This document shows, one piece after another, positions 3,781-38,498 of a DNA stretch of 64,000 nucleotides. The stretch spans positions 1,550,001 through 1,614,000 of the forward strand of contig NZ_CP063400.1 of NCBI RefSeq assembly GCF_021729865.1, in the 5' to 3' direction. Both the position numbers and the translations under genes were made by a program. This DNA comes from Hydrogenophaga sp. SL48 (lineage in GTDB: Bacteria; Pseudomonadota; Gammaproteobacteria; Burkholderiales; Burkholderiaceae_C). The notes under the pieces were generated by a model. That model did not search any database. It was given only the letters and a program-made list of their open reading frames with translations, and was not told the DNA's origin. Every line of letters starts with the position of its first letter. Positions within the stretch are counted from its first letter, which is position 1.

Positions 3781-4938
3781 TCATGCCCGTCCCCAGGCCG
3801 GCGCCACGTGGGCCATGTTGTGCGCGTCCATCAAAAAGCCGCGCAGCTCTTCGGGTGTGGCTTCTTGCTTCACGCGCATGGCGTGTTCGCGGATGCGGGC
3901 CAGCACGCGTTCGGTCAGCGCATCGTCTTCAATCGCCAGACCCATGGCACCAAAGGCCAGGCGCACGGCCTGCGAACCCGAGTGTTTGCCGAGCACGGTG
4001 CGGCGCTCGCGACCGAGTTCACCCGGGTCGAAGCCTTCGTAGGTCGAGGGGTGCTTCTGCAGGCCGTCGATGTGGATGCCCGACTCGTGCGTGAACACGG
4101 CCTCGCCGACGATGCTTTTGTTGAAGGCCACCGAGCGTCCGGAAGCGCGTGCCACGAGTTGCGAAATGCCGAGCAGGGCGTGGGTGTCGACGCCGGTGTC
4201 GGTCTGTTGCAGATGACGCGCGGCCATCACCACCTCTTCCAGCGCGGCGTTGCCGGCGCGTTCGCCCAGGCCATTGACGGTGGTGTTGGCGTGGGTCGCG
4301 CCGGCGCGCGCGGCGGCCAGGGTGTTGGCGGTGGCGAGGCCCAGGTCGTCGTGGGCGTGCATCTCGATGTCGATGTCCACCGCGTCGCGCAGGCGGGCGA
4401 TGGCGTCGAAGGTGGCAAATGGGTCGAGCACACCCAGGGTGTCGGCGAAGCGGATGCGGCTGGCGCCTGCGGCCTTGGCGCGTTTGGCCACTTCGATCAG
4501 GAAAACGATGTCGGCACGCGATGCGTCTTCGGCACCGAAAGAAATCTGGCGCCCGCTCTGCGCGGCCTGGCTGATCAGGCGCGTGACCTGCTCCAGCACC
4601 CACTCGCGCGACTGGCGCAGCTTGTATTGCAGGTGGATGTCGGAGACCGGGATCGAGAGGTGCACGATCTGCGCGTTGCAGCGCAGCGCGCTGGCGAGGT
4701 CGGTCTCGGTCAGGCGGCCCCAGACCATCAGCCAGGCTGGCAGCTTCAACGCAGCGATGGCGTTGATGCAGGCGATCTCTTCGTCGCCCATGGCCGGGAT
4801 GCCGATTTCCATCTCGGCCACACCCGCGGCCGAGAGGGCCGAGGCGATGGCGCATTTCTCGGACACCGTGAACGCCACCCCGGCGGTCTGTTCGCCGTCG
4901 CGCAGCGTGGTGTCGTTGATGATGAGATTGCGTGGCAT
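3781..4938 (-). CDS. nifV: NifV, homocitrate synthase
   Basis: 385 residues from the ATG at 4938. It is a pyruvate-carboxyltransferase (TIM barrel) enzyme with the N-terminal [16 protein letters not shown] motif and the [21 protein letters not shown] metal-binding signature near residue 195. NifV condenses acetyl-CoA with 2-oxoglutarate to homocitrate, the organic ligand of FeMo-co. The length and the lack of a C-terminal regulatory domain fit NifV rather than LeuA. It is the first gene of the operon and is directly preceded by a sigma-54 promoter with a NifA site. Confidence 0.94.
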
Positions 4939-4983: not shown

Positions 4984-5086
4984 CTGTTTGGACGCTTCAA
5001 AACCCGCTTTCTCTCGGCATGTGGGGTTGGTTTGTCGGGTCTGGTCTGCTGGGCGCGTTCTGCCCTTGCTTTGCCTCTGTCGGAAA

Positions 5087-5102
5087 TGTGTTGTTTCGGA
5101 CA
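5087..5102. promoter_or_regulatory. NifA upstream activator site for nifV
   Basis: TGT-GTTGTTTCGG-ACA, an exact TGT-N10-ACA NifA binding motif. It is centred about 110 bases upstream of the -24 element of the nifV promoter, a normal enhancer distance. It lies only about 10 bases outside the long inverted-repeat element that starts near 5112. Confidence 0.8.
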
Positions 5103-5111
5103 GGGGTGCGG

Positions 5112-5680
5112 GTTCTCTCGGGTTGCACCTCGCGGCCAATGCGTGTGCGGGCAGGCCGCAGCGCTTCGGTGAGGCGGTCGGCGCTGCGCACCGACTTCCC
5201 TGTGATGCTCGCGACCGTGGCCCGTCGCCAAACTCGCTGCGTTCGCTGGCGCTCTCTCCGCTCAAACAATGGCGACGAGTCAGTCAACGAAGCGCGCTGC
5301 GCGCGCGGCCACGGTCACTGCGCTTCTCGGCGCCTCACAGGCGCGCTACGGCCTACCCGCACACGCCTTGGCAAACAGCAGTGTTGGCGCGCCACTGGTG
5401 GAGAGCAAACCTCCCTTCTTGCTGCGGCAGGCGCTGTCCGGTGGGGGCGATTTCTGGGGCGGCTGTGACCGCCAGCCTGGGGCCGGGCGCGCAAGTGCGC
5501 GCTTCGTTTCTGACTCGCGGCCACTGTCTGAGCGGAGAGAGCGCAGCGAACGCAGCGAGTTTGGCCGCGCCGGCTCCAGGCTGGTGGGCGCAGCGGAGTC
5601 GGCGCAAAGCGCCGACCGTCCCAGCATGAGCCCCCGCCGGGCAGCGCCTGCCGCAGCCGCGAGGTGCTGCGAACGAAACC
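5112..5680. repeat. Long dispersed non-coding inverted-repeat element, copy 1
   Basis: This 569-base stretch between fdx and nifV matches 37459-38020 along its whole length, by eye about 80-85% identical. It has no credible gene; all frames are crossed by short GC-rich open frames without ribosome sites. It is built as a hyphenated palindrome: GCACCTCGCGGC near 5125 pairs with GCCGCGAGGTGC near 5658, and a 36-37 base arm at 5228-5264 (reading CCAAACTCGCTGCG...) is the reverse complement of 5529-5564. It contains many sub-palindromes (GGTCGGCGCTGCGCACCGAC type). Function unknown. Confidence 0.85.
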
Positions 5681-5694
5681 AATGAAAAACTCTG

Positions 5695-6030
5695 TCAGTG
5701 CTCCCGCGCATGGTTGCGCGTGTGGCGCGGAAACTCGATCACCAGATCGGCCTCACGCAGCTTCACGCAACAGGCCAGGCGCGACTGCGCGTCCAATCCC
5801 CAGGCGTGGTCGAGCTGGTCTTCTTCGTCGTCCTTCGGCTTGGACAACGAAGCGCCACCTTCCCGCACGTAGACATGGCATGTCGCGCAGGCTGCCACCA
5901 TCTCGCAGGCGTGTTCGATGGCGATCCCGTGCGCCAGCATGCCCTCACACAGGGACTCACCCTTTTGCAGTTCGATCTCACGCCCCTCGGGGCAGAGGTC
6001 TGGGTGGGGCAACAGACGGACTTTGGGCAT
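5695..6030 (-). CDS. fdx: Isc-type [2Fe-2S] ferredoxin
   Basis: 111 residues, the size of adrenodoxin-like Fdx of isc operons. Cluster ligands appear as C-X5-C-X2-C (CEMVAACATC, about residues 42-51) and a later cysteine in SRLACCV (about residue 85). N-terminal PKVRLLPHPDLCPEG and the acidic DDEEDQLDHAWGL segment are typical of IscFdx. It starts 7 bases after the hscA stop and is the last gene of the isc operon. It supplies electrons for cluster assembly on IscU. Confidence 0.93.
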   Translation of the reverse strand: MPKVRLLPHPDLCPEGREIELQKGESLCEGMLAHGIAIEHACEMVAACATCHVYVREGGASLSKPKDDEEDQLDHAWGLDAQSRLACCVKLREADLVIEFPRHTRNHAREH

Positions 6031-12779: not shown

Positions 12780-13950
12780 GGCTACGCTGAACAAGTCCAG
12801 GGGTGGCGCGAGGTTTGCATGTATCGATGCACCCGAGACACGAAGGTGAAGATGAAGCAACAGACCCTGGCGATGGCAGCCGATCAAGGCGACGGATTCG
12901 AGCCCTACCGCAAGCCGACCAAGCGCGATGTGTTCCTTGCGACGATGGAACAGATCGTGCCCTGGCAGGCGCTGTGCTCTGTCGTCGAACCTCACTACCC
13001 CAAAGCCGGCAACGGGCGCCCACCGATCGGGCTCGAACGCATGCTGCGGATGTACTTCGTGCAGCACTGGTTCAACCTGGCCGATGAGGCCTGCGAAGAG
13101 GCCCTGCTCGACAGCACGGCGCTGCGCCGCTTTGTGGGCATCGATCTTGGGCGGGAGCGCGTGCCTGACGGGACCACCCTGCTGAAGTTTCGCCGCCTGC
13201 TGGAGCAGCACAAACTGGGCGAGGCCCTGTTTGCCAAAGTGGGGGAGGTGCTGCAGGCGCGAGGCTTGAAGGTGGGCACCGGCACCATCGTGGACGCCAC
13301 CATCATCGGCGCGCCCAGTTCGACCAAGAACGCCGACAAGCAGCGCGACCCCGAGATGCACCAAACCCGCAAAGGCCAGCAGTGGTATTTCGGGATGAAG
13401 ATGCACATTGGCGTGGACAGCCGCACCGGGCTGGCGCACAGCGCTGTGGTGACAGCAGCCAACGTACACGACAAACACCCGCTGCCCGATCTGCTGCACG
13501 GCAACGAGCAGCGTGTGTATGGCGACAGTGCCTACGCCAGCCAGAAAGCGTTGATCGGATCGAAGGCCCCCAAGGCCAAGGACTTCACCAACCAGCGCGT
13601 GCGCAGGGGTGGCGATATCGACGAGGCCGAGCGCTCCAGAAACCACAACAAGTCCAAGGTCCGCGCCCGGGTCGAACACGTCTTCGCTGTGGTCAAACGG
13701 CTCTGGGGCTTTGCCAAGGTGCGCTACCGGGGCCTGGCCAAGAACGCCACGCGCTCGTTCGTTGTGCTGGGTCTGGCCAATATCTATTTGGCGCGTCAGC
13801 GCCTCATGGCATGAGTGCGTCCGTTGCGCACGACGGGTGCGCGAGCACGGCTGGTATGTTCAGGGAACGCGGTCGAATCGCGCTGCTTGCCCGCGTCGGC
13901 AACCCTTTGCGTAGCGGGCCACTCAATTCGGCTACTTGTTCAGCGCAGCC
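12780..13950 (+). mobile_element. IS5-family insertion sequence (1171 bp)
   Basis: Complete element with 17-base terminal inverted repeats (GGCTACGCTGAACAAGT left, GGCTGCGCTGAACAAGT as the complement of the right end) differing at one position. It is flanked by the direct duplication CTAG (12776-12779 and 13951-13954), the YTAR-type target of IS5. It carries one intact transposase. The insertion point is two bases after the nifA stop, so nifA is intact. Confidence 0.93.
12819..13814 (+). CDS. IS5-family transposase
   Basis: 331 residues with the IS5-type N-terminal domain (MYFVQHWFNLADEACEEALLDS) and the DDE catalytic core: GTIVDATIIGAPSSTKN, the second aspartate in YGDSAYAS, and RARVEHVFAVVKR with the glutamate. 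The frame is complete, so the element may still be active. A start at the inner methionine near 12852 (MKQQTLAMAADQ) is also possible. It shares the architecture of the second transposase at 43897-44886 but is a different element. Confidence 0.93.
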   Translation: MYRCTRDTKVKMKQQTLAMAADQGDGFEPYRKPTKRDVFLATMEQIVPWQALCSVVEPHYPKAGNGRPPIGLERMLRMYFVQHWFNLADEACEEALLDSTALRRFVGIDLGRERVPDGTTLLKFRRLLEQHKLGEALFAKVGEVLQARGLKVGTGTIVDATIIGAPSSTKNADKQRDPEMHQTRKGQQWYFGMKMHIGVDSRTGLAHSAVVTAANVHDKHPLPDLLHGNEQRVYGDSAYASQKALIGSKAPKAKDFTNQRVRRGGDIDEAERSRNHNKSKVRARVEHVFAVVKRLWGFAKVRYRGLAKNATRSFVVLGLANIYLARQRLMA

Positions 13951-37041: not shown

Positions 37042-37416
37042 ATGAACCAACACCCCATGCTGCTCAGCGCCTTGTTGGGCCTGATCCAGAACGCCTGCGA
37101 ATCGGTGCTGATCCTGGTCGAACAGCTGCCGCGAGAAGAGTTGATGCGTTCGCGCCTCACGCGCGCCGAGGTGCAGCGCCAGCTCGCCACCCTGGCCGCC
37201 AGCGTGGCGCAGATCGAGCCGGAGCAACGCGCCACCATGCACGAGCTCGACTGGTCGGGCTGGGCACTGATGCGGGTGCAACTCGCTGGCCCGCCCGGCG
37301 AGACCCTGGACGAAGCCCTGTGGTTCGCCAGTCAGTCGCTGGTGCCCGCGACGCTGCTGTGGTTAAGGGTGTACCGGCAGAGTCAACCCGATCTGTTTCG
37401 CATGAGTCTGGCTTGA
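37042..37416 (+). CDS. Small helical protein ending the nifB operon, unknown function
   Basis: 124 residues with a helical N-terminal half (LLSALLGLIQNACESVLILVEQLPREELMRSRLTRAEVQRQL). It follows the amine-oxidase-like gene by 7 bases, so it is co-transcribed. No catalytic motif. The long inverted-repeat element begins 43 bases after its stop. Confidence 0.7.
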   Translation: MNQHPMLLSALLGLIQNACESVLILVEQLPREELMRSRLTRAEVQRQLATLAASVAQIEPEQRATMHELDWSGWALMRVQLAGPPGETLDEALWFASQSLVPATLLWLRVYRQSQPDLFRMSLA

Positions 37417-37458
37417 GGGCGCTGGCGCTTTTCAGCTCTCTCCGGGTGAGCAGTCGGT

Positions 37459-38020
37459 CTCTCTCGTGGCACCTCGGGTGCCAAGGCGTGTGCGCTCAGG
37501 CCGCAGCGCTTGAGTGAAGCGGCCGGCGCTGCGCACCGACTGCCCTGCGATGCTCGCGGCCGTGGCCCGTCGCCAAACTCGCTGCGTTCGCTGGCGCTCT
37601 CTCCGCTCAGACATGGCGACGATTCAGATGACGAAGCGCGCTGCGCGCGCGGCCACAACCCCTGCGCTTCTCGGCGCCTCACATGGCGCGCTGCGGCCTG
37701 AGCGCACACGCCTCGGCAGGACCGGCGTGGGTTCTCTATCAGTTGAGAGTCAAGTCATTTCATGCTGCGGCAGGCGCTGTCCGGTGGGGGCGACTTTCCG
37801 GGGTGGCTGTGTCCGCCCGTCTGGGGCCGGGCGCGCCAGTGCGCGCTTCGCTGACTGACTTGCGGCCACTGTCTGAGCAGAGAGAGCGCAGCGAACGGCG
37901 CGAGTTTGGCCGCACCGGCCCCAGATGGGTGGGCGCAGCGAAGTCGGCGCAGCCGACCACCCGGATGAGCCCCCGCCGGGCAGCGCCTGCCGCAGCACGC
38001 GAGGTGCCACGAGCGAGATC
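37459..38020. repeat. Long dispersed non-coding inverted-repeat element, copy 2
   Basis: A 562-base relative of 5112-5680 in the same orientation. The ends TCTCGTGGCACCTCG (about 37462) and CGAGGTGCCACGAG (about 38000) are inverted repeats; their loops differ from copy 1 while the pairing is kept. The inner 36-37 base arms are at 37573-37609 and 37874-37909. It separates the nifB operon from the molybdenum operon. No gene is supported inside. Confidence 0.85.
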
Positions 38021-38074
38021 TGCGCCCACCCAAAAAGAGCACAGAAAAAGAGACCAGCGTTCCCTTCCGCAAGC

Positions 38075-38090
38075 TGGCCCACGTATTGCA
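38075..38090 (+). promoter_or_regulatory. Probable sigma-54 promoter of the molybdenum operon
   Basis: TGGCCC-ACGTA-TTGCA, one mismatch to TGGCAC-N5-TTGCA with correct GG-N10-GC spacing. Start expected near 38101, about 110 bases before the first gene. Confidence 0.68.
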
Positions 38091-38120
38091 AACCAGGTCA
38101 ACAAGCCACGTAAGCGTGGA

Positions 38121-38144
38121 CGTTGTGTAGCAAAGCACACAACG
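38121..38144. promoter_or_regulatory. Perfect 8-8-8 palindrome, possible ModE box
   Basis: CGTTGTGT-N8-ACACAACG. The 8-8-8 layout with CGTT and AACG ends resembles known ModE (molybdate-repressor) boxes of modABC operons. It also contains TGT-N10-ACA, so it could be read as a NifA site, but it lies downstream of the likely promoter. A further half site CGTTGTGT is at 38162-38169. Confidence 0.55.
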
Positions 38145-38213
38145 CTGTCCTTGGACCCGTCCGTTGTGTCGTGACCAATACAGAGCCGGTCCCCTTGTTC
38201 ACAGGAACTCCTC

Positions 38214-38498
38214 ATGTCCCCGTCCGAGTTGAACGCCACCAGCCAGCCCCTGATGGGCAAGCTGCTGATCGACACCGCCATGGGCAGCTTCCTCGGCGAC
38301 AAGCGCATCCGCCTGCTCGAAGCCATCGCCCAGCACGGCACCGTCAATGCCGAGGTCACGCTGGACCTGCCGGGCGGCCACCACGTGCTGACCGCCGTGG
38401 TCACCGACCAGAGCGTCGAGCGCCTCGGTCTCGCCGTGGGCCAGCCGGTGACCGCGATCTTCAAGGCCTCCAGCGTCTTCCTCGTTTCCACCGACTGA
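38214..38498 (+). CDS. Mop/TOBE molybdate-binding protein with a ModE-like N-terminal remnant
   Basis: 94 residues. The C-terminal two thirds (VNAEVTLDLPGGHHVLTAVVTDQSVERLGLAVGQPVTAIFKASSVFLV) is one complete Mop/TOBE domain that binds molybdate. The first 33 residues (LIDTAMGSFLGDKRIRLLEAIAQHG) look like the start of the ModE winged helix, which then breaks off and joins the Mop domain in frame. It cannot bind DNA as ModE does. It could be a molybdate store (molbindin) or a deletion derivative of modE. Confidence 0.82.
   Translation: MSPSELNATSQPLMGKLLIDTAMGSFLGDKRIRLLEAIAQHGTVNAEVTLDLPGGHHVLTAVVTDQSVERLGLAVGQPVTAIFKASSVFLVSTD

Follow-up and report, generated by a model that had tools for sequence, protein, structure and literature searches.

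Introduction

Mobile insertion cassettes, among them MIC231 of Bacillus cereus and mic-qnrD of the Proteeae, are outlined in the part of the source drawn upon here as inverted ends placed around passenger genes, with no inner transposase and with a supposed movement in trans (PMC3913671). The REPINs of Pseudomonas and Escherichia were summarised, in the corresponding part of their description, as a non-coding, inverted pair of hairpin-forming repeats for which an enzyme acting in trans was supposed as well (PMC3116915), and the size of the single REP was given elsewhere, in an abstract, as ~20-40 nt (PMC3733652). Next to these, the repeats R0, R1, R2 and R6 of Pseudomonas fluorescens were characterised as intergenic sequences of 80-177 bp that consist of inverted repeats around a variable core and show a tail-to-tail bias, the excerpt of their description holding neither a double hairpin nor cargo (PMC2718517).

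Within the window, i.e. the whole stretch of 64,000 nucleotides from Hydrogenophaga sp. SL48 that was analysed, two copies of an element locate whose working mode, judged by analogy, appears closest to that of mobile insertion cassettes and REPINs. Like the former, the element possesses inverted ends, and 7 of its 83 hairpin pairs enclose genes, none of them a transposase (10 ORFs); unlike the former, its ends are folded hairpins of 240 nt, most of its paired copies are empty, and neither a parent IS nor a target duplication was found at the loci examined, the flanks of which have diverged. Its unit is an inverted hairpin pair as in REPINs (83 of 93 neighbouring pairs being arranged plus-then-minus), and solo hairpins occur too, but the hairpins of the element measure ~240 nt, some elements carry genes and a RAYT link was not seen (0 hairpins in 12 Y1_Tnp loci). 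A REP carries a GTAG-like tag, whereas inspection of the element alignments by eye revealed none at the stem base. Terminal inverted repeats are shared with the classical MITE, yet no autonomous parent was found among the loci examined; the intergenic position, the inverted repeats and the tail-to-tail bias are shared with the P. fluorescens repeats, which, in contrast to the ~540 bp of the element, are much shorter.

Folded single-strand sites are also known from integrons, where attC sites, with GTTRRRY as partner box, stand in direct orientation in arrays by intI and accompany small accessory genes, so that the cargo varies between strains. The cargo of the element likewise consists of small accessory genes which differ between genomes, but its ends are inverted, attC boxes were not seen and no link to integron platforms was found. 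Invertible intergenic segments such as phase-variable promoters are bounded by inverted repeats and occur both ways round. The element is alike in that inverted repeats bound it and both orientations exist at one site, although its differences were seen between species and not within a population, and we know of no invertase acting on it. A literature search covering titles and abstract openings, and leaving most subscription journals outside its coverage, found no published description of such an element.

The two copies in the window

The original prediction, which saw a non-coding element at 5112-5680 recurring in the same orientation at 37459-38020, was reproduced by local alignment of copies e1 (5114-5676) and e2 (37458-38016), both on the + strand, in which 486 of 551 aligned positions are identical and 14 gaps occur; blastn gave 85.4% identity (E ~1e-163). 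Alignment of the family set the element ends (GCACCTCGCG/CGCGAGGTGC) to 5125-5667 and 37469-38007. Each window copy comprises an LE and an RE hairpin of ~240 nt each in inverted arrangement, a short linker and short inverted ends, whereby the following features were assigned:

5125..5667, + strand: element copy 1 (e1), from LE to RE, bounded by the conserved GCACCTCGCG ends of the family alignment
3781-4938, - strand, and 5695-6030, - strand: neighbours of e1, a homocitrate synthase gene (nifV-like) and a 2Fe-2S ferredoxin gene (Pfam)
5125..5136, + strand: left terminal inverted repeat of e1, 12/12 complementary to 5656-5667
5135..5373, + strand: LE hairpin of e1, arms 5135-5176 / 5331-5372, core match of our model R1 at 5197-5331 (141.1 bits)
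5374..5419, no strand: linker of e1, the position of cargo genes in other members
5420..5658, - strand: RE hairpin of e1, inverted, arms 5421-5462 / 5616-5657, R1 match at 5461-5596, - strand (85.7 bits)
5656..5667, - strand: right terminal inverted repeat of e1, partner of 5125-5136
37469..38007, + strand: element copy 2 (e2), whole, ends from the family alignment
37042-37416, + strand, and 38214-38498, + strand: neighbours of e2, a 124-aa gene and a TOBE-domain gene
37478..37719, + strand: LE hairpin of e2, arms 37479-37509 / 37688-37718, R1 match at 37542-37675 (133.7 bits)
37720..37761, no strand: linker of e2
37762..37998, - strand: RE hairpin of e2, inverted, arms 37763-37791 / 37969-37997, R1 match at 37805-37941, - strand (84.3 bits)
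37458..37481, + strand: extended left inverted repeat of e2, pairing with 37995-38018 (22/24, 92% complementary)
37995..38018, - strand: extended right inverted repeat of e2, partner of 37458-37481

Both copies thus possess the inverted ends that had been predicted. The inner arms of 36-37 bases, also part of that prediction, are present in e1 (5213-5248 with 5281-5316), where with 72% complementarity they are weaker than the outer stems, whose complementarity amounts to 86% and 83% in e1 (42 nt each) and to 97% (31 nt) and 93% (29 nt) in e2. The notion that the ends differ between the copies with their pairing kept applies to these outer hairpin stems but not to the termini, as the terminal GCACCTCG is identical in e1 and e2. 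LE and RE hairpins have a common core and different outer stems. Mechanically called ORFs run over the copies, e.g., 4988-5629 on the + strand (213 aa) and 37760-38491 on the - strand (243 aa); since the 14 gaps are mostly of a single base, e1 and e2 share no reading frame, in agreement with the earlier impression that no gene is visible. Copy e2 lies upstream of the TOBE-domain gene and a solute-binding protein gene. Elsewhere in the nif region a DDE transposase gene (PF01609/PF05598) is found at 12819-13814 on the + strand.

Spread, pair arrangement and cargo

Copies of the element are present far outside Hydrogenophaga sp. SL48. Restriction to this strain had been named in the original prediction as a refuting condition, and the two others, pairing not kept among copies and a real protein frame under purifying selection, did not arise either. 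The own genome of SL48 (5.43 Mb) contains seven full copies and an internally deleted one at unrelated places (40 of 121 candidates scored), and related genomes of the genus hold further copies. Two subtypes were recognised, type A ending in GCACCTCGCG and type B in TTGGTTGGCG, with the internal hairpin core being conserved. With a type-B hairpin as query, matches to this core were obtained in at least 77 of 250 genomes of the family and at least 48 of 126 genera, a lower bound based on three scored candidates per genome. A DNA pattern of the core occurs in at least 115 stretches of the GTDB species set; among the 80 matches listed, titles name Hydrogenophaga, Rubrivivax, Rhizobacter, Methylibium, Aquabacterium, Albitalea, Inhella, Ramlibacter, Variovorax, Rhodoferax and others, next to bins named only Burkholderiales, beta-, gamma- or proteobacteria. 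A class-wide model search with nine scored candidates per genome, which does not imply absence elsewhere, gave a match in at least 1 of 370 genomes, i.e. the own genome. On plasmids the type-A element had no match and type B one partial match in Comamonas, phages yielded no match to the type-A element and viral contigs no exact match to one core pattern. The closest pair of copies is 94% identical over 360 nt; near-identical copies were not seen, hence there is no sign of present activity.

Two internally deleted copies were noted (L008 and G034:C15:180346-180468), one of which is without most of its LE hairpin and the other has little left beyond its ends, and one type-A copy in G015 is broken by a 90-base insert within the RE hairpin (L070 2466-2555).

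Scanning the loci with a profile made from 142 hairpins, by which a few copies were counted twice owing to overlap between window and fetched loci, revealed 76 of 93 neighbouring pairs to be plus-then-minus at less than 300 nt (57-253 nt between core matches) and 7 of 93 to be plus-then-minus at 0.7-2.5 kb, enclosing genes. The remaining pairs are minus-minus (4), plus-plus (2) and minus-then-plus (4), the last all more than 3 kb apart. Furthermore, 33 loci whose inner sequence extends over 1.2 kb or more possess one strong hairpin only (e.g., L066, L069, L121, L126). Among those analysed with the covariance model, two showed weak partners nearby (L113, L134); the others may be solo remnants or may have larger cargo. 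The cargo of the seven wide pairs was as follows:

L060: AbiC-like protein (PF16872, 5.7e-18)
L059: MauJ-domain protein (PF17419, MauJ-like)
L063: PF20383 protein
L062: proteins of 253 aa and 310 aa
L108: PF09234 protein
L127: two unknowns
L109: 150-aa protein

NCBIfam yielded no name for 10 cargo proteins, and a PDB sequence search with the 310-aa protein gave no match. PADLOC identified one cargo protein as AbiP/AbiC-like and gave no match for five of the same set and four more; for the cargo of sites B and D described below, weak or generic helix-turn-helix hits or nothing were returned.

Filled and empty sites in relatives

Empty sites, for which the original prediction had suggested a look at sister strains, were found in relatives. 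Site D locates between two convergent genes. Here, G027 and G083 enclose different genes between their hairpin pairs, G076 carries an OmdA-domain gene and a helix-turn-helix gene by one intact hairpin with the other end decayed, the contigs of G077 break within the element, and the site is empty in each of the 11 remaining genomes for which both flanks were read, among them the own genome, with 7-143 nt between the flanks. Site B carries a two-gene cargo in G027, a 216-aa ORF with one intact hairpin and one decayed end in G077 and a P-loop kinase-like gene between decayed ends in G061; it is empty in G022 and holds 7.4 kb without a hairpin in G076. The site of L004 is filled in four species and empty in G075. 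None of the further genomes examined at the L060 site possesses a full element; G063 retains remnants, and of the rest some are empty and some contain different inserts. Different, hairpin-free inserts were seen in further genomes at the L062 site as well as at that of L060. Because some of the cargo copies at sites B and D have a decayed end and the inserts at the L060 and L062 sites are hairpin-free, gene acquisition by other means at these variable sites is possible. Target-site duplications, also brought up by the original prediction, were not recognisable at the empty/filled pairs examined, the flanks of which have diverged by roughly 10-25%.

The empty site D of G022 (L382) retains GGCGGGTGTCAG. 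This sequence matches the left end of the type-B elements exactly and resembles either a scar that a lost element left behind or a target that is preferred.

Orientation and probable exchange among copies

Considering 38 type-A matches in nine genomes, eight sites were identified that are common to at least two species on both flanks, and at three of these eight (e1, e2 and the site of L006) the element exists in opposite orientations. For e1, G000 (the own genome), G088 and G069 oppose G015, G060, G067 and G080, the assignment of G069 being made by one flank only. For e2, G000, G060 and G067 oppose G015, G069, G080 and G088, whereby G060 and G088 possess half elements with one clear flank each. 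At the site of L006, G000 and G066 oppose G034 and G069. Apart from the 26-nt match of G088, the distance between the element end and the start of the flank match ranges from 1 to 106 nt. As all four e1/e2 combinations of orientation occur, at least three orientation changes have to be assumed on any single tree. These differences were seen between species, not within a population, and inversion in place or removal followed by fresh insertion at the same point would fit them alike.

In the tree of 29 full copies, site labels (25 labelled rows, seven sites) have to change 15 times and genome labels (nine genomes) 16 times, both counted without a shuffled baseline. In this tree e1 and e2 of G067 are sisters (100/98), and elements at one site do not form one clade. 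Because neither site nor genome sorts the tree, an exchange among copies is indicated.

Proposed mode of movement

Based on these findings, the element is probably a non-autonomous mobile cassette with structured, hairpin ends that is moved or exchanged in trans, and of which the window copies represent the empty form. Of the three possibilities originally offered, MITE-like mobility, taken together with structured ends, suits the data better than a structured RNA or a protein site. It stays incomplete with regard to paired hairpins that can enclose genes and to both orientations at one site across species. The assumed mechanism would start with an enzyme, encoded elsewhere, whose recognition sites are the hairpin cores in folded form, perhaps as a single strand of each. 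This enzyme would insert, remove or exchange the unit at intergenic sites, often just behind stop codons, and the unit would be turned round in place when its inverted ends recombine or the template is switched between them. Exchange between copies would finally mix the element sequences. Since the searches made found neither a mobilising enzyme nor a target duplication, we infer the movement itself, along with its trans mode, the strand involved and the turning in place; family, architecture, covariation, occupied and empty sites, different cargo at one site and opposite orientations between species were observed. Several observations speak against this reading. Within the part of the genus that was scored, types A and B track lineages, which fits vertical inheritance and loss as well, and the 33 loci with only one strong hairpin count against a cassette. 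So do the missing target duplications, the lack of a transposase among the 10 ORFs scanned in the wide pairs and of a recurrent mobile gene beside solo hairpins, the lack of near-identical copies among those seen, and the possible gene acquisition by other means at the variable sites. If the mobile cassette does hold true, a large group of environmental bacteria would carry an unnamed class of mobile cassettes with small accessory genes and no enzyme of their own, and recognition would rest on DNA structure, because the stems are re-written while the pairing stays. The host enzyme, a single-strand action like that on attC and an effect of orientation on neighbours such as the nif genes would be testable, and sites B and D make presence, absence and cargo traceable across close species.

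As a more specific and rather tentative suggestion, the two large inverted hairpins may be single-strand-folded recombination sites of a new gene-cassette class of the Burkholderiales, at which an enzyme in trans would insert units, swap their cargo and invert them; under this suggestion one site would receive different accessory genes across species, and at least one element a gene resembling phage abortive infection genes.

A plain MITE family is considered unlikely. It would consist of deletion derivatives of a DDE insertion sequence that was lost or not recognised, with flips due to homologous recombination between the inverted ends and cargo due to occasional passenger capture, and short terminal inverted repeats, dispersed copies and empty next to filled sites agree with it. 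However, no transposase is present among the 10 ORFs scanned (Pfam) in the seven wide pairs, the parent transposase expected of a MITE was not found at the loci examined, and no target duplication was recognised. Furthermore, the ends vary by subtype (GCACCTCGCG/TTGGTTGGCG) and the internal core is conserved, which is the reverse of a MITE.

Hairpin folding and covariation

Covariation was assessed with 63 diverse hairpins (less than 84% alike), for which RNAalifold proposed 43 pairs, 39 of these having changed on both sides. Paired cells account for 93.0% of 2660, a level that none of 500 shuffles reached (71.7% paired), both-sided changes for 550 cells as compared to 159, and the covariation score is 0.513 as compared to 0.149 in shuffles and 0.05-0.09 with partners slid by 1 to 3 columns. 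Conservation of pairing, originally proposed from the two window copies, hence extends across the family. Watson-Crick pairs make up 2447 of the 2660 cells (92%) and G-U pairs 27. When one column pair is excluded (2598 cells), the strand as written shows 15 G-U and 49 A-C cells; including it, the counts are 27 and 50. With that column pair excluded, the A-C/G-U ratio of 3.2 has bootstrap limits of 1.9-7.5, but by column pair the balance is only 16 versus 8 (p = 0.15). Only 36 of 180 hairpins fold at a lower energy on the strand as written than on the complementary one, and the advantage of the latter may originate from a few conserved columns. Taken together, the sequences hint at one strand of each hairpin being the folding strand, and the scarcity of wobble pairs argues for a DNA rather than an RNA fold.

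The very strong covariation would also be expected of an immobile structured intergenic sequence, i.e. a small RNA gene, a terminator or a nucleoid-protein site that is kept by selection and rarely spread, and so would the genomic context. Using a simple codon-usage gene caller, 57 elements with called genes at most 600 nt away on both sides were evaluated, genes overlapping the element by more than 40% being set aside. Their gene pairs are tail-to-tail in 15, same-direction in 40 and head-to-head in 2 cases, as compared to 77, 478 and 92 of 647 other gene pairs, and this tail-to-tail excess gave a Fisher p of 0.006 with some orthologous sites counted more than once. Such an immobile sequence is nevertheless improbable, as relatives have empty sites and different cargo at one site, the wobble given above is rare for an RNA, and the orientation differences would reverse a transcript. 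Rfam points the same way, with no family at gathering score in the 64-kb window and, in four loci searched up to E = 5, four weak matches of which none lies on an element.

Pairing may also be kept by mutation: template switching at quasi-palindromes copies arm onto arm and thereby changes both sides without wobble intermediates, as the 92% Watson-Crick cells with hardly any wobble would suggest, and the element could then be inert. Such correction could create part of the covariation without selection and may act in addition. As the whole explanation it is scarcely probable, since it leaves the near-invariant blocks outside the stems (e.g., CCCTGCG.TGCTCG and CTGCGCTTCTCGG), the plus-then-minus pairing, the cargo and the orientation changes unexplained.

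Candidate mobilising enzymes

For the mobile cassette with hairpin ends, the enzyme assumed to act in trans was sought among the loci examined, which contained neither an autonomous copy nor a transposase bearing the ends of the element. Beside solo hairpins no recurrent mobile gene was identified (60 of 87 listed proteins scanned); their neighbours represent 118 Pfam families, of which only LysR domains (3) and response regulators (2) occur in more than one protein. An IS21 pair next to the solo hairpin L146 is regarded as being there by chance.

It is quite improbable that the element is a giant relative of REPINs or of IS200/IS605 and is mobilised in single-stranded form through a Y1 tyrosine transposase acting in trans. 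The inverted hairpin pair as a unit resembles REPINs as outlined in the part of their description used here (PMC3116915), and the wobble asymmetry suggests one folded strand. Yet the own genome has just one Y1_Tnp (RAYT-like) match (L194, G000:C1:308632-308913), which lies beside a glutamate synthase gene and has no hairpins nearby, and its HUH motif reads NQFQ, as compared to NHFH and NHLH in two relatives, where it also lies beside the glutamate synthase gene; with its HUH histidines lost it was rejected as mobiliser in the own genome. Moreover, 11 of 12 other genomes tested have one Y1_Tnp match each, with or without the element, and the 12 Y1_Tnp loci contain no hairpin (best E 0.93).

Highly improbable are integron-related cassettes, with the hairpins as outsized attC-like sites of an integron integrase: folded-hairpin recombination, small cargo genes, an integrase over cut-off in 4 of 16 element-bearing genomes (with partial matches under cut-off in the own genome and G015) and a decayed integrase fragment inside one element would fit, but an integrase over cut-off is also present in 1 of 5 element-free genomes, 12 of the 16 element-bearing genomes have none, model R1 gave 0 matches in 13 integron-region sources, the hairpins are inverted and not direct, and the GTTRRRY box was not seen in the alignment. 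As no link was seen, the integron integrase was rejected as mobiliser. The fragment mentioned is the decayed C-terminal part of an integron-type integrase and locates just behind the LE hairpin of a cargo-bearing element (L062 2302-2442, - strand).

Apart from types A and B, a further subtype was observed at L159, L187 and L190, which possesses long outer ends of CAAAGAAAGG-type hairpins. Hairpins of this type are known from many beta- and gammaproteobacterial genomes, and the core pattern may capture only a part of the element family.
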